Below are positions 39,970 through 49,691 of a DNA stretch of 64,000 nt, in pieces. The notes beneath the pieces are model-generated. The model was not told where the DNA came from. It ran no database searches and saw only the letters and a list, made by a program, of their open reading frames with translations. Numbering within the stretch: position 1 is the first letter of the stretch; every line of letters starts with the position of its first letter. This DNA comes from Rubrivivax sp. Lineage in GTDB: Bacteria > Pseudomonadota > Gammaproteobacteria > Burkholderiales > Burkholderiaceae_C. The translations under genes were made by a program, and so were the position numbers. Where the stretch lies: NCBI GenBank assembly GCA_022843905.1, contig JALHMT010000006.1, positions 1 through 64,000 of the forward strand, written 5' to 3'.

Positions 39970-41879
39970 CAGCTTGCCGAATCCAGTGCCATGGTCTCAG
40001 CGGGTGCGGGCCGGCCGAACAGGTAGCCCTGAAGCACATGGCAACCCATCGCAGCCAGCATGGAGCGTTGGGCCTCGGTCTCCACCCCTTCGCCGACCAC
40101 TTCCAGCCCCAGGCTGTGGGCCAGACCCACGATGGCCTTGGTGATGCGGTAGTCGTCGTCGTCGTCCGGCAGTCCGTTGATGAACGAGCGGTCGACCTTC
40201 AACACCTGGGGGCGGATGTTCTTCAGGTATGCAAGGGATGAGTAGCCGGTGCCGAAGTCGTCGATTGCCACTCGCACACCGACCTCACGCAACTGCGCGA
40301 GCACGCGCAGCGTGTGATCGGGCGTCTCGAGCAGAACGCGCTCCGTCAGTTCGAGCTCCAGCAGCTGTGGCGGCAGGCGCAGCCCTTCACACAGCGACCG
40401 CAGGCGCTGCGGCAAGTGCGTGTCGGTGAACGTCCGCGGCGACACGTTCACGGCCATGCGGGGCAGCCTGAGTCCCTGGTCACGCCACCGTGCGAGCTGC
40501 TGGCAAGCGCTGCGCAGCACCCACTCGTCCATGCTTGCCGTGAGACCTCGCGCCTCGGCCACCGGGATGAACCTGCTCGGTGGCATCAACCCTTCCACAG
40601 GGTGCTTCCACCGAACCAGTGCCTCGACGCCGACCATCGCTCCCGTCCGAGCGTCGACCTGAGGCTGGTAGTGAAGAACCAGCTCGTTGGTCTCGATGGC
40701 CCGGACGAGTTCGACCTCGATGCGGGCCTCGTCGCTGCCGGTCTTCACAATGTCCGGGCTGCAGACGCGAATGTCGTTCCGCCCGGACTGCTTTGCCGAC
40801 TGGAGTGCCCGGGTGGCTGCCGACAACAGCTCAGTACCGGTCGATCCGTCTGCCGGAAAGCTGGAGATGCCGATGCTGGACGTCACCCGGACGAGTTGCC
40901 CTTGCAGGTCGAGCGGCTGTCCCAGGCAGGCCAGCAGCTTCTCGGCGACCGTCATCGCAGCTGGCACGCCGAAGGCCGTGCCGACAACGACCACGAATTC
41001 GTCAGAACCGATTCGCCCGACCGTGTCGCCGTCGCGAAGTGCCGCCTTGATGCGACGAGCCATTGTGGCCAGCAGTCGATCTCCAGCACCGTGGCCGAGC
41101 GCGTCGTTGATCGAGCGGAAGCGATCCAGGCCGATCAGCAGGACCGAGACCTCCTGCCTGATGGTGGCGGCCTCCAGGACCCGTCGCTCCAGGCGCGATA
41201 GAAGGCCATGGCGGTTCAGCAGTCCGGTCAGCGCATCGTGTTCTGCGAGCAGTTGCAGACGGCGACCCAGCTGGGTCGATTCCGTCACGTCCCGGCCGAC
41301 GCCGCGATAGCCGGCGAAGTTGCCCGCCGCATCGACGTGTGCGGTGCCGCTCATGATGAGGAAGCGCTGGGCACCGGTGTCGTCGATGCAGTGCAGGCGC
41401 AGGTCGCGAAAGGGCTCGTGTTGAGCCAGTCGCGCGCGGAGCAGGCGCTCGTCGCCGCTGTCGCGCTCGAAACCCAGGCACTCGTCGATGCGACGTCCCA
41501 GCATGCGCGAGGCGGAGAGACGCTGCACGCCTTCGAACGCGTCGGACAGGAAGCTGAACCGTTGCTCGGTGTCCAGTTCCCAGACCCAGTCGGCCGACAG
41601 GGCCAGCAGACTGCTCAAGCGCGACTCACTGAGGCGGAGAGCCTGCGTCTTCTCCTCCAGTGCGGCAATGGCCAGATCGGCTTCCTCTGCAGCAAGTGCC
41701 TGAGATCTCTCGAGGATGTAGACCGAGCGGTTGAGTTCCTGGATCCTGGTCTCGAGGCTGGCGCTCAGCGCCTGCCACTCCATGGCATCTGCCGGTCCTC
41801 GCGCAAGATGAACACCCATCCGGGTACACGCCCGCTCCAGGTCGTTCCACTTCCCCTTTGCCACGTCGATGGAGCTCAT
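39969..41879 (-). CDS. PAS-GSDEF-EAL protein, probable c-di-GMP phosphodiesterase
   Basis: 636 aa. An N-terminal coiled coil (about 50-90), PAS (about 90-205), GGDEF-like (about 215-370) and EAL (about 385-630). The cyclase motif reads GRIGSDEF: the second glycine is serine, which usually weakens cyclase activity, though RxxD (RDGD) is kept. The EAL site is complete: VEALVRW, VNVSP, LELTE, IDDFGTG, VLKVD and GEGVE. It is therefore likely a phosphodiesterase, possibly activated by GTP at the GSDEF site (known from similar proteins). It overlaps the FIST stop by 4 bp, so its input may be the FIST protein. Confidence 0.92.
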   Translation of the reverse strand: MSSIDVAKGKWNDLERACTRMGVHLARGPADAMEWQALSASLETRIQELNRSVYILERSQALAAEEADLAIAALEEKTQALRLSESRLSSLLALSADWVWELDTEQRFSFLSDAFEGVQRLSASRMLGRRIDECLGFERDSGDERLLRARLAQHEPFRDLRLHCIDDTGAQRFLIMSGTAHVDAAGNFAGYRGVGRDVTESTQLGRRLQLLAEHDALTGLLNRHGLLSRLERRVLEAATIRQEVSVLLIGLDRFRSINDALGHGAGDRLLATMARRIKAALRDGDTVGRIGSDEFVVVVGTAFGVPAAMTVAEKLLACLGQPLDLQGQLVRVTSSIGISSFPADGSTGTELLSAATRALQSAKQSGRNDIRVCSPDIVKTGSDEARIEVELVRAIETNELVLHYQPQVDARTGAMVGVEALVRWKHPVEGLMPPSRFIPVAEARGLTASMDEWVLRSACQQLARWRDQGLRLPRMAVNVSPRTFTDTHLPQRLRSLCEGLRLPPQLLELELTERVLLETPDHTLRVLAQLREVGVRVAIDDFGTGYSSLAYLKNIRPQVLKVDRSFINGLPDDDDDYRITKAIVGLAHSLGLEVVGEGVETEAQRSMLAAMGCHVLQGYLFGRPAPAETMALDSAS

Positions 41880-43030
41880 GACTCACCCCAGGCGGTCAAC
41901 GCGATCGACTGGTTGTGAAGCAGTGACGGCAGCGTCGGCGCCACCGGAGCCATCTCGCCGTACGAGCAGAACCCCAGTTGGCTGGAGCCAGCCGGTGCGG
42001 CTGCCTGAAGTGCGAGCAGTTCTTCCTCCACAGCCGTGCCCAGCACCAGCCTGCGCCCTACGCAGGAGACCACGGTCGTGAACGCTGGCACTTCGACTGG
42101 CCAGGTCGCGAACAACTCGCTTGCAGCCCGGGCCGCGCTCTCGATCAGATCGCTGCGGCTGGCTCTCATCAGGCGGGCCTGGCCCGCGTGGGGCAGGGTG
42201 CCCGCAAACGTCATGCTGCCTGCATCCCGGTTGATCGAGAGCACAGTTCGAACGAGCGGTTCGCTGGACGTGGCCGTGCCGCGCACCTCGAGAGGAAATC
42301 GAAGGGCGCTGCCCGGGAGTTCCTCCGCCAGTTCGCCCAGGTAGCGTTGATAGAGCTCCAGCGCTGACTGACCATCCAGCTCGAACAGGGTGTTGCCGAC
42401 ACAGCGCGTGATGCGCCTTGTGGGCCCGAAGGGTATCCAGCCACGGGCACAGCTCGTGGCCACTCTGAGCCGGCTGCCCACCAGACCCACCACCCGCACC
42501 TGGTCCTCACGAGGTCCGTCGTCCGTGAGAGCCCATGGCCGCTCGAAGTGCGTGCCGTCGCCCGCGAGACCGCCGGTGATGACCACGCCGCCCGGCAGCG
42601 ATTGCTGCAGCCCGTCGAGCAGTGCCTGACCATCCAGTGCTGACCCGGCACCAACGACGAGAACCGACCGCAAGGCTTCGCCTTCGCTCTTTCGCTCGAG
42701 GTCCTTGCCCAGTGAAGTCCCCGCCATGTGGGGATCGGGCAGGTCCTTCAAGGACAGATCGGCCGAGATCAAGCGGGTGTGTTCGAACCCCACCAGCGCC
42801 AACACCACCGAGTTGTCGGTCAGGCGACCGCCCGCCAACTCCCCTGCCGTGGAGCCGCCGATCCAGTGAGCCGCGGGCAACTGCCGCTGCAGTCGCTGCA
42901 GAGTCTCGCTTGCCATGTGAGACCGGGACGACGCGAAGGCGATCGCCAAGGTCCCGGGGTGGTTGAAGTCCCGAACAAGCGCCGGGCGAAAGTTTCGAGG
43001 GGTGCTGTGGTCGAAGGACTCGATGAGCAT
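41876..43030 (-). CDS. FIST-domain sensor protein
   Basis: 384 aa with FIST_N (about 25-225: IAFASSRSHMASETLQRLQRQLP, WIGGSTAGELAGG, GGLAGDGTHFERPW) and FIST_C (about 240-375: LELYQRYLGELAEELP, CVGRRLVLGTAVEEEL, SQLGFCSYGEMAP). FIST proteins are cytoplasmic sensors; one branch (NosP) binds heme and senses nitric oxide to control a kinase or a c-di-GMP enzyme encoded beside it. Here the next gene, overlapping by 4 bp, is a GGDEF-EAL protein, so a NosP-like role is plausible but heme ligands are not proven. It is the first gene of the leftward operon. Confidence 0.92.
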   Translation of the reverse strand: MLIESFDHSTPRNFRPALVRDFNHPGTLAIAFASSRSHMASETLQRLQRQLPAAHWIGGSTAGELAGGRLTDNSVVLALVGFEHTRLISADLSLKDLPDPHMAGTSLGKDLERKSEGEALRSVLVVGAGSALDGQALLDGLQQSLPGGVVITGGLAGDGTHFERPWALTDDGPREDQVRVVGLVGSRLRVATSCARGWIPFGPTRRITRCVGNTLFELDGQSALELYQRYLGELAEELPGSALRFPLEVRGTATSSEPLVRTVLSINRDAGSMTFAGTLPHAGQARLMRASRSDLIESAARAASELFATWPVEVPAFTTVVSCVGRRLVLGTAVEEELLALQAAAPAGSSQLGFCSYGEMAPVAPTLPSLLHNQSIALTAWGES

Positions 43031-43343: not shown

Positions 43344-43904
43344 ATGAAAGACGACACAGCGCACGCACACCCTGCATCACATGCCGAGCCCGCCGTTGGC
43401 GGGGCGGCAGCGGCCGGCGACTCGACAGCGGATGCGAACGATCCCTTCGAAACGCTTTCGGTGGCGGCCGACATCCTGCAACAGGCGGCCTCCCAGGCCG
43501 TGACCGTCCTCGGTGAAGTGGTGCCGGTCGCGATGCTCTGCATCGCAGTTCAGCGGCACTCGGTCGAGCTCTCACTGCTGCCGGAGACCGTCCTGCAGGA
43601 CGCCCATGTCGCGGACGCGATGGCCGAGCCGCTGAATCGGACCGCGCAGCAGGGGCTGTCCGCCATGCGTACGATGTGCGACCGTCAGCGCGTGCTGATG
43701 GGGCACATCGAGCAGGCGGGTGTGCTGCTCATGACGCTGGCGGAACAGCTGCAGCGTCGCGAAGCCGCGATCGGGCTGGAGCGCGCCCGCCATGCGCAGC
43801 AACTTCAGGCCAATGCCGAAGTCGCTCGCGACATGGCCAAGCATGCCATGAACATCGATCGAATCATGAGCAGCGTGTGGTCGCAGACCCAGGAGGTTTC
43901 CTGA
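43344..43904 (+). CDS. Hypothetical helical protein, first gene of the B12/GGDEF operon
   Basis: 186 aa. After an alanine/histidine-rich N-terminus (about 1-35) it is almost wholly alpha-helical: DILQQAASQAVTVLGE, LSAMRTMCDRQRVLMGHIEQ and a long final coiled-coil helix rich in E, R and Q. No signal peptide or membrane helix. I do not recognise a family. Its stop shares one base with the start of the B12-binding gene (TGATG), implying coupled production and perhaps a complex. Confidence 0.7.
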   Translation: MKDDTAHAHPASHAEPAVGGAAAAGDSTADANDPFETLSVAADILQQAASQAVTVLGEVVPVAMLCIAVQRHSVELSLLPETVLQDAHVADAMAEPLNRTAQQGLSAMRTMCDRQRVLMGHIEQAGVLLMTLAEQLQRREAAIGLERARHAQQLQANAEVARDMAKHAMNIDRIMSSVWSQTQEVS

Positions 43905-44674
43905 TGGAGCCACTTCTGCCGACGATGCGACCGACAGTACAGCGATGGGGTCGCGGCGGTACCACGGCTGCCAGTGGTGTCGACCTGATGGCCGATGAGT
44001 TCCTGGACGCCCTGCTGTCGGCGGATCGGGTGGCCGCGTTTCGCATCGCGTCCAGCGCCGTCGATCGTGGGATGCGGTTGCCGGATGTGCATCTGCATGT
44101 CATCCAATGGGCCATGTCCAGAATCGGACATCTGTGGGAGACCGGAAAGATCTCGGTCGCGGCCGAGCACACGGCCACCGCCATCGTTCAGTTCGTGGTC
44201 ACCTCGCTCTACCCGCTGATGCAGCGCAGCGAGACGATGCGCGGCCATGCGGTGGTGGCCGGTGTCGCGGGCGAGGCGCACCAGCTCGGCGCTCATCTGG
44301 TGTCGGATGCCCTGGAGTCCGATGGCTGGCAGGTTCGTTTCCTGGGGGTCGACTGTTCACAGTCAGTGATCCTTGACGCCTGTGCCGACCCACAACTTCA
44401 CCTGCTGGCCTTGTCGTGCACCATGATCGACAACCTGGACGAACTGCGCCAGGTGATTGCCGCCGTTCGCGCCAAATGCACTGGCTGGTCCCTGCCTTGG
44501 ATCCTGGTGGGCGGCCAGGCGTTCGGGTCGGGACTTCCGGCGCACGAACAGGCGCTGCGGCTGGGCGCCGATGCGCTCGCGCTCGACCTCAACGGAGCGG
44601 TGGCCGTGGCAAGGGCCTGGGCGGATCCCCATAACCAGATCCGCCAGCGGACCGGGGGCGACCATGCGGGCTGA
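43904..44674 (+). CDS. B12-binding protein with the W-x9-EH signature of cobalamin photoreceptors
   Basis: 256 aa with a helical cap (about 28-105) and a B12-binding Rossmann domain (about 110-245). The cap contains HLWETGKISVAAEHTA: Trp, nine residues, Glu-His, the signature that encloses the adenosyl group in CarH-type light sensors. The Rossmann domain has GEAHQLG (E-x-H-x2-G), the form in which His is the lower cobalt ligand, and later LVGGQAFG. There is no MerR domain, so like AerR it should act by protein contact. In Thermus CarH a His follows the Trp and ligates cobalt after illumination; here that residue is Glu, so the lit state may differ. The gene overlaps the downstream GGDEF gene by 11 bp. 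Confidence 0.88.
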   Translation: MEPLLPTMRPTVQRWGRGGTTAASGVDLMADEFLDALLSADRVAAFRIASSAVDRGMRLPDVHLHVIQWAMSRIGHLWETGKISVAAEHTATAIVQFVVTSLYPLMQRSETMRGHAVVAGVAGEAHQLGAHLVSDALESDGWQVRFLGVDCSQSVILDACADPQLHLLALSCTMIDNLDELRQVIAAVRAKCTGWSLPWILVGGQAFGSGLPAHEQALRLGADALALDLNGAVAVARAWADPHNQIRQRTGGDHAG

Positions 44675-45755
44675 GGAAGTCCTGGAGGACGGCGCCTCGA
44701 ACCGGGCCGCTGGACGATTGGGAGCATCGATTCCCGTCGCGGTGGATGCCAGCGAGCTTCGCTCCCGCTGCATCGAGCGCCTGTGCGAAAGCTCCGAAGA
44801 GTTCATCGAACTGGTCGTCAGCTGCACGGGCGACATCACTCATGTCAGTCCGTCCCTGGCCCGAAGGCTGGGACGCCAAGGCGCTTCCCTCACGGACGTC
44901 GGGCTCTCGGAGGTCCTGAGTGCGGAAGCACGCGCCTGGCTGCTCGGCGGACATGCTGCCACGCCCGGTCCTCGGGTGCTGCACTTCATCGATTCGCTGG
45001 GGCATCCGTTCTCTGCCAGAGTCCTGGTCCTGGTCGAGCCTGGACGTTTTCGTGCGCTCGGTCTGCTCACCGCTGCCTGCGACGTCAACGAGCAAAGGCA
45101 GCTGTACTCGCTGAACAACGAGCTGGCAGTCTCTTCGCGCGAGTTGTCGAGGCAGCGGCGACAACTCGAGACCTTGGTGGCGCAGACCCGTGCCCGGGAA
45201 CTGGAGCTGCTGGAGGCCTACCAGACCATCGAGCGGATTGCGCGTACCGACCCACTGACCGGCCTGTTCAACAGGCGGGTCCTGGACGAAGAACTACCCA
45301 AGGTGCTGGAGCGGGCCAGCTTGGCTCGGAGGCCCGTGTCGGTGCTGGTGATCGATCTGGACCACTTCAAGCAGATCAACGACCGCTTCGGGCACGATGC
45401 CGGCGATCAGGTGCTGGCCGAAGTGGCAGCCGTCATGCGTCGCAACACCCGAGAAAACGATCTGGCGGTGCGACTAGGGGGCGAAGAGCTCATGCTCGTC
45501 CTGTCTGGTGTCGGTTGTGACCGTGCACTCGCGCTCGCCAACGACCTGCGACGCGGTATCGGGAACGTGAGCGTGAGCGTGAGCGCCGTTGACAGCAGGG
45601 TGACAGCCAGCATCGGCGTTGCGACCTGGACGGGCACGGAAGAGCCGCTGCCGGTGCTGCTGGCGCGTGCGGATGCGGCGATGTACCGCGCGAAGGTCGA
45701 GGGACGAGACCGGTGTGTCGTGGCCGAGCCACCGCGCCCGGCACCTTGCAGTTGA
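44664..45755 (+). CDS. GGDEF protein (GGEEL variant) of the B12 operon
   Basis: 363 aa. The first 145 residues look like a PAS-type fold (FIELVVSCTGDITHVSPSLARRL ... RALGLLTAACDVNE). A coiled coil (about 145-190) leads to GGDEF: DPLTGLFNRRVLDEE, DLDHFKQIND and the active-site loop VRLGGEEL, with Leu in place of the final Phe. The RxxD inhibitory site (REND) is present. Since the acidic pair is kept, the enzyme is probably active, but this needs testing. Its start lies inside the B12-gene end, so cobalamin sensing may regulate c-di-GMP production (inference). The long frame starting at 44457 is rejected. Confidence 0.9.
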   Translation: MRAEEVLEDGASNRAAGRLGASIPVAVDASELRSRCIERLCESSEEFIELVVSCTGDITHVSPSLARRLGRQGASLTDVGLSEVLSAEARAWLLGGHAATPGPRVLHFIDSLGHPFSARVLVLVEPGRFRALGLLTAACDVNEQRQLYSLNNELAVSSRELSRQRRQLETLVAQTRARELELLEAYQTIERIARTDPLTGLFNRRVLDEELPKVLERASLARRPVSVLVIDLDHFKQINDRFGHDAGDQVLAEVAAVMRRNTRENDLAVRLGGEELMLVLSGVGCDRALALANDLRRGIGNVSVSVSAVDSRVTASIGVATWTGTEEPLPVLLARADAAMYRAKVEGRDRCVVAEPPRPAPCS

Positions 45756-45941: not shown

Positions 45942-48344
45942 ATGTCGCCGCCCCAGCGCCTCGTCGTAGTTTGCGCATCAGCAGGCGGTCTGCAGGCAAT
46001 GCAGGACTTCCTTGCAGAACTGATCGTCGATGACGTCACGGCTGTGCTGGCGGCCATGCACCAGGCGGCTGACGCGCGCAGCGAACTGGCGGACCTGCTT
46101 CGATCGTCCGTCAGTGTCCCGGTCGATTGGCTGACCGATGGTGTCCAGATTGCCTATGGTCGCGTCCAGGTGGTTCCCATTGGACAGTCCATCGATCTGA
46201 CGGCCGACGGCTTCAGGTCCAGCGAAGGCCGCAAGCGCACGAGCAAGCCCTTCGATGAACTGCTGATCCAGGCGGCCCAGCGGTTCGGGGACCGCGTGTC
46301 TGCCGTCGTGTTGTCCGGCGCCGGCAGCGACGGCACGGAGGGCTGCATGGCGGTGGTTGCCGCTGGAGGCCGCGTCTATGCGCAGTTGCCGGTGGGCGCC
46401 GAGTTTCCGGGGATGCCGCAATCGGTCGTCTCAAGAGGAGTCGTCCAGCTGATGGGCAGTCCGCGGACTCTCGCAGAGTATCTGAACGGCAGCCGTTGGC
46501 CCCGCTCCACCGACGAAATCGGACGCGCGGCAGTCGAAGCGGCGCTGGTGCTCCTTGCGAAACGGGGCGGGCCGGACTTCCGCCTGTACAAGCCCGGCCT
46601 GATCGCAAGGCGGATGAGCCATCGCAGGCAGAAGCTGGGCTATCCGAGCAGCGAGGCCTATGTGGCGGCGCTGCACGGCGACGCTGCAGAGATCGATGCC
46701 CTGCGGCAGGACCTGATGATTTCGGTGACCAGTACGTTCCGCGACCCGGGCATGTGGGAGGCGCTGGCCCAGGAGGTCGTGAAGCCCATGGTGGACGGGC
46801 TGGACGCCCTGGGTGCGCAGGGTGCCCCAGGCGGACGCTCGCGGACCTTGAGGGTGTGGGTTGCTGCCTGTGCCACGGGGGAAGAGGCGTACTCGGTGGC
46901 CATGATCCTGGCCCAGGAGTGCCACAACCGGGGCAAAGGCCTGGACTTCCAGGTCATCGGAACCGACGTCGATGAACTGGCCATCGCTTCGGCCCGGTCG
47001 GGTCGTCTCACCGACGCGGCCGTGGCAGGGACACCGGTTGCGCTTCGGGAGCGATGGCTCGCGCCTGAGGTCGATGGGGTCCGCATCGTCGCAGGCCTGC
47101 GCGAGCATGTGCTGTTCGGTGTTCACGACGTGCTCGGCGACCCGCCGTTCGGAAGCATCGACATCCTGTTCTGTCGGAACCTGCTGATCTACCTGGCCGA
47201 TGCAGGACAGAGGACAGCACTCGCCAGCTTCGGACGCGCGTTGTCGCCGGGCGGCTTTCTGGTGCTCGGCCGAGACGAGATCCTGCCCGAGGGGCTGGCG
47301 GGCTGGCGGGCCCTGGATGGTGACCATCGGATCTTCCGCAAGACAGGAACTGGGCTCTCTGGCCCCGGCGAGAGCCGTTCCGTGGGCCATCTCGGGCGAG
47401 GCGGCGGACCTTCGCCATCACGGCGCGACGGTCTGGATGCCGGCGTCGCTGACGTCCTGAGCGCCCGGGAATTCAATCAGTCTGGAATGGACCTGCGCTC
47501 GGCATACGAGTCCCTTCAGTGCGTGAACGAAGAGCTGCACACCGTCAACGAGGAACTGCGCCTCGTCAACTCGCAACTCGACCAATCCCTGTTCCGCGAG
47601 AGACAGGCCTCATCCAAGCTGCACGCCGTCATCGCCTCGGCCGTGCACCCGCTCCTGGTGGTGGATTCGGATGGCCAGCTGGAACACTTCTCACGCAGTT
47701 CCGGCCAGCTGTTCCGCTTGCGAGCCGGTGACGAGGGTCGGCCGCTGCCTGACTTCGCGAACGACCTGCTCTGGCCGGAATTCGCGTCGGTGGTGCAGCG
47801 TTGCGCGACGCAAGGGGGTGAGTCCGTCACGAAAGAGGTGATGGACATCCGGGGCAGCCACTGGTTGGTGATTGCCGCGCCTGTCGGCGGCACGGGCCGG
47901 CACGAGCGAAAGGTGCTCATCACAGCCACCGACATTTCGCGGCTGCGTGATGCGACCCGGCTTCAGGCCATGCTGGACGCCTTGCCGCAACAGGTGGCGG
48001 TGCTCGATGCCGGTGGCTGCATCGAGTACGTCAACCGCGCGTGGCAGGACTTTGGCAGCGCCAACGGCGCAGATCCGGCGCGCATCGACGTCGGCGTCAA
48101 CTACCTGCAAGCAAGCGCACCCTCGGGCACGACGTCCGATCCGTTTGGCGAGCGTGCGTCGCGAGGTGTCGGTGACGTGCTGGCGGGTCGCGCAGCAAGG
48201 TTCCGCATGAAGTATCCATGCGCAGGTGCTGCCGGGATGCTCTGGTTCCTGCTGGAGGCGACCTCGCTGGCGCGGCCGGAAGGCGGGTGTCTGGTCTCGC
48301 ACACCGACATCACCGATTGGTTCAACGATGCAGGTTCGACGTGA
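45942..48344 (+). CDS. CheB-CheR-PAS fusion protein
   Basis: 800 aa. The CheB-like methylesterase domain (about 1-180) has Ser in CASAGGLQ, His in MHQAAD and Asp in LSGAGSDGTEG, so the triad is there. The CheR-like domain (about 200-475) has TSTFRDPGMW, the SAM loop VAACATGEEAYS and ILFCRNLLIYL. A coiled coil (about 505-555, NEELHTVNEELRLVN) and two PAS domains (about 560-660 and 665-795) follow. Such fusions are found in signalling kinase networks and often act outside classical chemotaxis. It precedes a histidine kinase by 9 bp and may adjust it or the neighbouring MCPs. Confidence 0.93.
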   Translation: MSPPQRLVVVCASAGGLQAMQDFLAELIVDDVTAVLAAMHQAADARSELADLLRSSVSVPVDWLTDGVQIAYGRVQVVPIGQSIDLTADGFRSSEGRKRTSKPFDELLIQAAQRFGDRVSAVVLSGAGSDGTEGCMAVVAAGGRVYAQLPVGAEFPGMPQSVVSRGVVQLMGSPRTLAEYLNGSRWPRSTDEIGRAAVEAALVLLAKRGGPDFRLYKPGLIARRMSHRRQKLGYPSSEAYVAALHGDAAEIDALRQDLMISVTSTFRDPGMWEALAQEVVKPMVDGLDALGAQGAPGGRSRTLRVWVAACATGEEAYSVAMILAQECHNRGKGLDFQVIGTDVDELAIASARSGRLTDAAVAGTPVALRERWLAPEVDGVRIVAGLREHVLFGVHDVLGDPPFGSIDILFCRNLLIYLADAGQRTALASFGRALSPGGFLVLGRDEILPEGLAGWRALDGDHRIFRKTGTGLSGPGESRSVGHLGRGGGPSPSRRDGLDAGVADVLSAREFNQSGMDLRSAYESLQCVNEELHTVNEELRLVNSQLDQSLFRERQASSKLHAVIASAVHPLLVVDSDGQLEHFSRSSGQLFRLRAGDEGRPLPDFANDLLWPEFASVVQRCATQGGESVTKEVMDIRGSHWLVIAAPVGGTGRHERKVLITATDISRLRDATRLQAMLDALPQQVAVLDAGGCIEYVNRAWQDFGSANGADPARIDVGVNYLQASAPSGTTSDPFGERASRGVGDVLAGRAARFRMKYPCAGAAGMLWFLLEATSLARPEGGCLVSHTDITDWFNDAGST

Positions 48345-48353
48345 GGGATCCAG

Positions 48354-49691
48354 ATGGTCGATGATCGCTTTCCGCCTCAAGAAGCAGCGAAACTGTTCGG
48401 GCCGTGGGATACCTTGATGGGTCAACTGCGGGACACGAGCGATGCAGCGCCGGAACTGATCGAGGCATTGCGGACGGCACACGTCGAGCTCGAGTTGCAG
48501 GCGGATGAGCTGCGTCGCTCGCAGGAAGTCATCAGCTCGGCGCTGGCCACCTCCGACGCCATGTTCGAAGTATTGCCGCTGCCCTTGTGGGTGGTTGCAG
48601 GCGGTGGACGCATCGTTCGCGCCAACGCGGGTGCCATGGCAATGTTCGCGGCGCTTCGAGTAGGAGACGACCTGAGCGACCTGCTCTCCACGGCGCGCGA
48701 CCGAACGCGCCTGTCGCGGGCCTTGGAGTCGATCGCCAGCGCTGGGTCGGCATCGGTTCCAGCGGTCGAGATTCGCGCGGACTTGAAGGAGGGCGCTGGC
48801 TACAGGGGCGATCTGCGCATGCGGCGCGTCGTGGGCGATGGGGGTCGTGTCCTGGCCGTTGCCGCCTTCGTTGATCTCACCCGCGAGATGAACCGGGAGG
48901 CCGCACTCGACATGGCCCTGGCCCAGGCCAACGACGCTGCACTCGCCAAGTCCGACTTCTTGAGGGCTGTCAGCCATGAACTGCGAACGCCGCTCAATGC
49001 GGTCGTGGGGTTTTCGCAGCTCCTTCAGCGGCACTTCGATGGTTCCTCACCGGTGGAAGCTTCCACTGGCCTGGACTGGATCAAGACCTTGGGCACGGCC
49101 GCACGGCACCTGACGACATTGGTCTCCGACTTGATCGACCTGCAGGTGCTCGAGGCGGGAAGGATGCGGATTCAGTGCGTGGATGTGCAGCTGCAGCCCC
49201 TGATCAACGAGGCCGTTGAACTGACGCGCTATCGGTTCGAGCAGCATGGCGTGAAGCTCATCATCCTGGCCGAACATGAGGCGGCCGTGGTGCACACAGA
49301 CCCGGCCCGCTGCAAGCAGGTGATCCTGAACCTGCTTGACAACGCTGCCAAGTACACGCCGCGCAGCCGTTCGGTGTACCTGGAGGTGGAGGCACAGGCA
49401 GTCGGCTACCGGGTGATCGTCAGAGACGAAGGTCCGGGCTTGACAAGGTCCCAGCAGGCCAACCTGTTCGAGGCGTTCAACAGGCTCGGGGCGGAGCGGT
49501 CCGGCGTGCAGGGACTGGGCTTGGGTCTCGCGATCAGCCGGCAGCTGGCGGTGCGCATGGGCGGACAGGTCGGCTGCGACAGTGCCCCGGGGAGGGGGTC
49601 GCAGTTCTGGTGCTGGTTGCCGGCCACGTCCCAGGCCATGCGACGGGCTGACAAGGTGGCAGCAGGCGGCAAGCCAGAGATTGACGATTGA
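48354..49691 (+). CDS. PAS histidine kinase
   Basis: 445 aa. An N-terminal coiled coil (about 30-60) and PAS domain (about 65-185) are followed by the dimerisation/phosphoacceptor motif AVSHELRTPLNAV (about 203-215). The ATPase domain shows N-box NLLDNAAKYT, G1 DEGPGL and G2 GLGLGLA. No transmembrane segment and no receiver domain, so it senses inside the cell and must phosphorelay to a regulator not encoded beside it. It starts 9 bp after the CheB-CheR fusion and shares its transcript. Confidence 0.94.
   Translation: MVDDRFPPQEAAKLFGPWDTLMGQLRDTSDAAPELIEALRTAHVELELQADELRRSQEVISSALATSDAMFEVLPLPLWVVAGGGRIVRANAGAMAMFAALRVGDDLSDLLSTARDRTRLSRALESIASAGSASVPAVEIRADLKEGAGYRGDLRMRRVVGDGGRVLAVAAFVDLTREMNREAALDMALAQANDAALAKSDFLRAVSHELRTPLNAVVGFSQLLQRHFDGSSPVEASTGLDWIKTLGTAARHLTTLVSDLIDLQVLEAGRMRIQCVDVQLQPLINEAVELTRYRFEQHGVKLIILAEHEAAVVHTDPARCKQVILNLLDNAAKYTPRSRSVYLEVEAQAVGYRVIVRDEGPGLTRSQQANLFEAFNRLGAERSGVQGLGLGLAISRQLAVRMGGQVGCDSAPGRGSQFWCWLPATSQAMRRADKVAAGGKPEIDD

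Follow-up and report, generated by a model that had tools for sequence, protein, structure and literature searches.

Can a light-sensing cobalamin protein control a diguanylate cyclase (DGC) that is encoded beside it rather than fused to it? The question is raised by a locus in the window analysed here, a 64,000-nucleotide stretch of contig JALHMT010000006.1 (contig C6 below) from Rubrivivax sp., in which three overlapping genes at 43344-45755 (+) encode an orphan protein of 186 amino acids (aa), a B12-binding protein of 256 aa, and a PAS-like/GGDEF protein of 363 aa. The first of these, gene 1 (43344-43904, +), overlaps the B12 gene (43904-44674, +) by 1 nucleotide (nt; TGATG), and a ribosome-binding-site-like AGGAGG lies within its end (43891-43896, +), 7 nt ahead of the ATG of the B12 gene, which in turn overlaps the GGDEF gene (44664-45755, +) by 11 nt. 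The coordinates, frames and both overlaps proposed in an earlier sequence-only reading of this DNA all agree with the sequence. All three genes show a coding-type G+C content by codon position that resembles the neighbouring CheB/CheR and kinase genes, and a promoter and terminator scan found none. We hold, with moderate confidence, that the operon is a naturally split, globin-free light switch of the photocobilin type that controls its co-encoded cyclase. The sequence-only reading had proposed synthesis of cyclic diguanylate (c-di-GMP) gated by light or by adenosylcobalamin (AdoCbl), and this is still the best reading, favoured by homology to photocobilins, by recurrent adjacency to GGDEF and kinase genes, and by the photosynthesis genes of the host, although light and AdoCbl sensing are not separable by sequence.

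The B12-binding protein passes two Pfam domains only, the helical B12-binding_2 (PF02607, 3.9e-12) and the Rossmann-type B12-binding domain (PF02310, 2.2e-12), with no DNA-binding and no globin domain, so that the earlier claim that a DNA-binding domain is missing holds. The residues from which light sensing had been read are also in place: a GxxW-x9-EH cap motif (G75, W78, E88, H89) and a lower axial histidine motif, E124-x-H126-x2-G129. The SxT and GG motifs (S171, G203, G204) are present as well. A sequence search of the PDB (phmmer) returned the photocobilin SasPcob first (8j2x, 6.6e-21), followed by CtMerR (8jbs, 1e-12), AbPcob (8j2y, 1.1e-12) and CarH (about 1e-5), and the NCBIfam CarH model scored 52.7 bits against a cut-off of 400; by sequence, the protein is nearer to the crystallised photocobilins than to CarH. 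With CarH, a MerR-type B12 photoreceptor repressor, it shares the two-part B12 domain with its W, EH and ExHxxG residues, but it lacks the DNA-binding domain and has a Glu at the position of Thermus CarH His132. The photocobilins described in the excerpted text of PMC10979010, which include the B12-globin-DGC fusion AbDPcob and the stand-alone SasPcob (PDB 8J2W/8J2X/8J2Y), have the same type of B12 domain, the W...EH and E/DxH motifs, and a DGC output. Unlike them, the operon's B12 protein has no globin or biliverdin domain, is encoded separately from its cyclase, and has a Ser in place of a conserved Pro, while the cyclase has a PAS-like receiver and the operon adds an orphan third gene. No match to the B12 protein was found in viral contigs.

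This protein is part of a clade of 20 loci that carry the W-x9-EH motif throughout, made up of the operon's own and 19 relatives. Four of the relatives came from a contig search, seven from 100 relative genomes (the best after the query, E 1.4e-23 or better), at least five from 398 phylum genomes (E 5.2e-52 or better; the remaining matched genes, at E 9e-31 or weaker, lack the motif and were excluded) and at least three from 399 order genomes, with up to 7 candidates scored per genome in the phylum and order searches; L035 lies on the same contig as L037 and was not counted separately. G75, W78, E88, H89, H126, G129, G148, S171, G203 and G204 are kept in all 20 members. When 79 B12-domain loci were scored, the 34 rows with W-x9-EH (19 distinct genes) all reached at least 177 bits, and the remaining 45 rows (43 distinct genes, one present three times) reached at most 113 bits and had no W-x9-EH even across the whole frame; the gap in bits is influenced by the scoring model, for which motif-bearing sequences were used, whereas whether a gene has the motif is independent of it. 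By context and length the 43 other genes are of the PpaA type, MetH, and others, and no CarH was seen among them, so they are uninformative on CarH itself. With 20 of 20 clade members against 0 of 43 other B12-domain genes, the motif is not a matter of chance.

In equal flanks of 1.5 kb, 9 of 14 clade loci have a GGDEF or histidine kinase (HK) match next to the B12 gene (GGDEF in 7, HK in 2), compared with none of the 43 others, a difference with a Fisher p of 2.2e-7 that is too good because the loci are related. This equal-flank set comprises 14 of the 19 relatives, the four contig-search loci and G021:C225 being left out, and contig ends shortened the flanks in 3 of the 14 clade loci and 1 of the 43 others. 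In wider neighbourhoods a GGDEF-type gene lies in the same run in 8 of the 19 relatives (L034, L037, L039, where it occurs with EAL, L042, L043, L120, L121 and L122) and a kinase gene in 6 (L032, L033, L036, L038, L116 and L119). The output gene adjoins the B12 gene directly or stands one or two genes away: a single gene separates them in L032, L034 and L119, whereas L033 and L036 have the kinase on the upstream side, also separated by another gene. No GGDEF or kinase gene was seen near the B12 gene in three relatives (L040, L041, L118), and in L115 and L117 the neighbourhood stops at a contig edge. This recurrence bears on a more prosaic explanation, that of an ordinary metabolic corrinoid protein, such as a methyltransferase subunit, lying beside a cyclase by chance. 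The B12 protein does match the NCBIfam MtgC/MtbC models weakly, but all scores are far under the cut-offs, the seven proteins tested at or near the operon include no corrinoid methyltransferase, and neither the absence of W-x9-EH from the 43 other B12 genes nor the repeated adjacency fits well with this explanation, which we regard as very improbable.

The product of the third gene consists of a PAS-like domain, a helical stalk and a GGDEF domain (PF00990, 5.4e-44 in Pfam). Its active site is GGEEL and it has an RxxD inhibition site, read in the translation as RENDLAVRLGGEEL; the fifth residue of the GGDEF motif is Leu, likewise in L037. These motifs are those expected of an active diguanylate cyclase. 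Residues 158-351 match positions 59-252 of the NCBIfam SiaD model, which cover the stalk and GGDEF domain, with 170 bits against a cut-off of 290. The partner proteins of the clade's B12 genes have in common a PAS-like domain that ends in an LNNEL-x4-REL-like helix running into the output domain, and this PAS/LNNEL region is common to GGDEF and kinase partners. PAS models match the region in L033 (2.2e-6, above cut-off) and L122 (2.5e-4, below cut-off), and none matched the operon's GGDEF protein in Pfam. When a PAS/LNNEL model was run against 15 genomes, G282 and G761 had their best match next to the B12 gene, and in G014 and G416 weak matches that were not the best of their genomes lay next to it (3.4e-4 and 0.0016); none of these four genomes was used in building the model. 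The region was also considered as an exclusive partner of B12 proteins, an idea that was rejected since paralogues are located elsewhere.

A possible course of events can be drawn from the relatives. The B12 protein would bind AdoCbl in the base-off/His-on form via H126, with W78, E88 and H89 capping the adenosyl group, and would form a dimer in the dark. Light taken up by the cobalamin, which is green light in relatives, would break the Co-C bond, adenosine would leave, and the oligomeric state of the protein would change. The B12 protein could then act in trans on the PAS-like domain and stalk of the GGDEF protein, altering its dimerisation and c-di-GMP output. We infer this contact from the light activation of AbDPcob, from the action of SiaC on the SiaD stalk, and from the alignment to the SiaD model. 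According to the excerpted text of PMC10979010, light raises c-di-GMP turnover by the AbDPcob fusion more than 10-fold, dark AdoCbl reduces its activity relative to the apo form, and separate photocobilins alter AbDGC activity in trans in vitro. The excerpted text of PMC8457831 describes SiaC as activating the SiaD cyclase by binding and holding the stalk dimer; as proposed for the operon, a small partner acts on a cyclase via its helical stalk, though SiaC is not a B12 protein and the operon's GGDEF protein falls below the SiaD cut-off. If the operon's cyclase behaves like AbDPcob, it would be activated by light and inhibited by AdoCbl in the dark, although the sign of the response is uncertain.

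The host genome offers a setting for such a switch. The assembly is 7.43 Mb in size, 97.7% complete with 5.1% contamination, and two Photo_RC genes (pufL/M type) lie on the operon's contig, C6. At C6:224000-242000 are genes that we take, by eye, to be bchB-, bchN-, bchG- and bchP-like, together with presumed ppaA- and ppsR-like genes. A heme oxygenase gene (PF01126, 2.4e-51) at C6:188662 adjoins a frame that we take, also by eye, to be bacteriophytochrome-like. Photosynthesis genes, the ppaA- and ppsR-like genes, this frame and the heme oxygenase all lie at C6:186000-242000 (L129, L044, L045, L046). The host also has a CobA/BtuR cobalamin adenosyltransferase (PF02572, 9.3e-61). Together, these genes make AdoCbl, biliverdin and a reason for sensing light plausible in this host. 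The PpaA/AerR B12 antirepressors of purple bacteria are likewise B12 proteins found alongside photosynthesis genes, and the host has what we recognised by eye as its own ppaA-like gene, but W-x9-EH is missing from that gene and from others of its kind, and the host copy adjoins the ppsR-like gene rather than a GGDEF gene.

Several observations weigh against the light switch proposed here. The published light-response signature has four parts, GxxxP among them (excerpts of PMC11796333), and the B12 protein carries three; its sequence at the fourth is G148-V-D-C-S152, with Ser152 at the Pro position. In CtMerR this Pro contacts the neighbour's adenosyl group, according to the same excerpts, and the published GxxxP filter would leave the operon's protein off the list of light-responsive proteins. 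There is no photoglobin in the operon, and none was found by profile in the host genome (best E 0.99). When SasPcob lacked biliverdin, its effect in trans was of opposite sign (excerpts of PMC10979010). Strong PAS/LNNEL matches occur away from B12 genes (G080:C314, G282:C4 and G761:C24, E 6e-18 to 9e-16), and 5 of the 15 genomes (G021, G058, G311, G386, G524) have no match beside the B12 gene at E 0.01, so that by sequence the receiver is neither exclusive to nor universal at the B12 genes of the clade. Gene 1, too, weighs against it, no counterpart having been found in relatives.

The change from Pro to Ser is a more telling departure than the one stressed in the sequence-only reading, in which it was absent. 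That reading had taken the Glu at the His132 position as a sign of different photochemistry, but across the 20 clade members this position is Gln in 10, Glu in 7, and Ala, His and Met in one each, so that a Glu is common and not diagnostic. Arg, Gln and Tyr at this position have already been published, with differing photochemical mechanisms suggested (excerpts of PMC11796333). The Pro, in comparison, is present in 17 of the 20 members, with Ser in the operon's protein, L043 and L118. Its loss could have left the light response absent or slow, in which case the B12 protein would report the supply of AdoCbl to the cyclase. The lack of a globin partner in the operon or, by profile, the genome, the adenosyltransferase gene of the host, and the lowering of AbDPcob activity by AdoCbl alone relative to apo (excerpts of PMC10979010) agree with a sensor of this kind. 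W78, E88, H89 and GxxW are nevertheless retained, one of the two other Ser-bearing members, L043, has a globin-like N-terminal domain and adjoins a PAS-GGDEF gene, and the host has photosynthesis genes; we therefore consider an AdoCbl-level sensor possible but unlikely.

For a light switch of the photocobilin type, the absence of a globin calls for comment, as the place of gene 1, on the upstream side of the B12 part, is taken by a globin domain in most relatives. In L037 and L042 neither gene 1 nor a globin was found by tblastn. In the tree, L042, which lacks a globin, is placed among relatives that have one (fork 92/88), and the operon's B12 protein groups, weakly supported (82/62 and 83/78), with L032-L034, L036 and L037; because these are separate places, loss or detachment of the globin probably took place more than once in the clade. 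In L032 and L034 a heme oxygenase gene (PF01126, 5.8e-8 and 1.7e-7, above cut-off) stands between the stand-alone B12 gene and the PAS-kinase or PAS-GGDEF gene (L032:6720-7994; L034:6672-7979), and the C-terminal part of its product matches the photoglobin profile with 24.5 and 18.9 bits, respectively, the best of 200 shuffles reaching 5.1. Such a heme oxygenase/photoglobin-like fusion was not encountered in the excerpts of PMC10151467 or PMC10979010. An ABM-fold gene adjoins the B12 gene in 12 of the 19 relatives (L033, L036, L038, L040, L041, L115, L116, L117 and L119-L122), and the four that were tested matched heme-degrading models of the HmuQ/IsdG type at E 4e-8 to 8e-14, all under cut-off; it is possible that these genes encode a heme-degrading enzyme that supplies bilin to the sensor. 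The BBAG-2/photoglobin clusters, in which the globin, the B12 protein and the heme oxygenase each have a gene of their own (excerpts of PMC10151467), resemble the operon in this separation of B12 and helper proteins and resemble L032 and L034 in their heme oxygenase, but the operon has neither globin nor heme oxygenase and its output is a GGDEF protein. In L117 (-) a photoglobin (880-1281, PF00502, 1.4e-5) and a B12 domain (239-835) occupy different reading frames, parted by a stop, which is either a split or a broken gene. A small protein in L119 (5093-5530) was rejected as a free globin, having scored 7.4 bits when one shuffle reached 14.2.

Gene 1 is a real gene, since its G+C content by codon position (0.75/0.45/0.79) follows the coding pattern. 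Its Ala/Gln-rich product has no Pfam match (including at E 10, and thus none to Phycobilisome) and no NCBIfam or PDB sequence match. Among 298 relative genomes, with up to 11 candidates scored in each, the sole strong match was gene 1 itself, the next having an E of 0.0015, and plasmids gave one match, at E 0.9. Residues 95-180 have a hydrophobic periodicity of 3.5 residues that 14 of 5000 shuffles equalled (530 of 5000 for a period of 3.6), and the C-terminal half is probably helical or coiled-coil; the earlier description of an unknown helical protein is thus a fair one. A RebB/R-body protein, suggested by eye, was rejected (-3.2 bits with the RebB profile, a score reached by 89 of 200 shuffles), and PF11747 was above cut-off nowhere in the host genome. 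Gene 1 as a detached photoglobin was rejected as well, as it ranked 179 of 295 among itself and its shuffles and scored -0.1 bits with a wider profile.

The position of gene 1, in the usual place of the globin, invites the idea that it stands in for photoglobin, as a helical subunit that binds a chromophore or serves in coupling, making a photocobilin of three proteins that uses B12 and a second pigment. The heme oxygenase of the host and the photoglobin-like domain on a separate protein in L032 and L034 are in keeping with this, but the photoglobin scores of gene 1 and its lack of a Phycobilisome match are not, its long heptad pattern is unlike a globin, and tblastn found neither component in L037 and L042, all of which makes a second pigment-binding subunit improbable. 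Within the split, globin-free switch that we favour, the most likely role of gene 1, though a guess, would be that of a coiled-coil scaffold or accessory of the complex. If so, the globin-free B12 photoreceptor, the orphan coiled-coil protein and the PAS-stalk cyclase may assemble into a three-component switch in which the PAS/LNNEL stalk is a general receiver for interchangeable outputs (GGDEF, GGDEF-EAL and histidine kinase), a fuller proposal that we offer only tentatively, as it is unlikely to hold in every part.

The principle itself is not new, since a light-activated photocobilin-DGC fusion and trans-activation in vitro have been published (excerpts of PMC10979010), and light-responsive B12 domains fused to DGCs have been catalogued (excerpts of PMC11796333). 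What is new here is the natural split, the lack of a bilin-binding globin, a PAS/LNNEL receiver that GGDEF partners have in common with kinase partners, and an orphan protein as third component. Titles and abstract openings in the literature revealed no split, globin-free B12-GGDEF operon, although the photoglobin survey of Schneider 2022 may contain such neighbourhoods. The function of stand-alone photocobilins has been called "less clear", trans-activation having been shown only by mixing proteins in vitro (excerpts of PMC10979010). The operon is a natural pair of B12 sensor and cyclase in a genome with photosynthesis genes, making trans control of c-di-GMP testable with cognate partners. 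If the proposed switch is real, the bilin domain would be dispensable and one PAS-stalk receiver would serve several outputs.

The operon is flanked by other signalling genes. Directly 3' of it, at 45942-49691 (+), lie a CheB-CheR-PAS fusion and then a PAS histidine kinase. To the left, a divergent run at 39972-43030 (-) encodes a FIST-domain protein, which scored 32 bits with the NosP model, far under the cut-off of 450, and a PAS-GGDEF-EAL protein. Two c-di-GMP gene runs thus stand back to back, with a gap of 313 nt between them.

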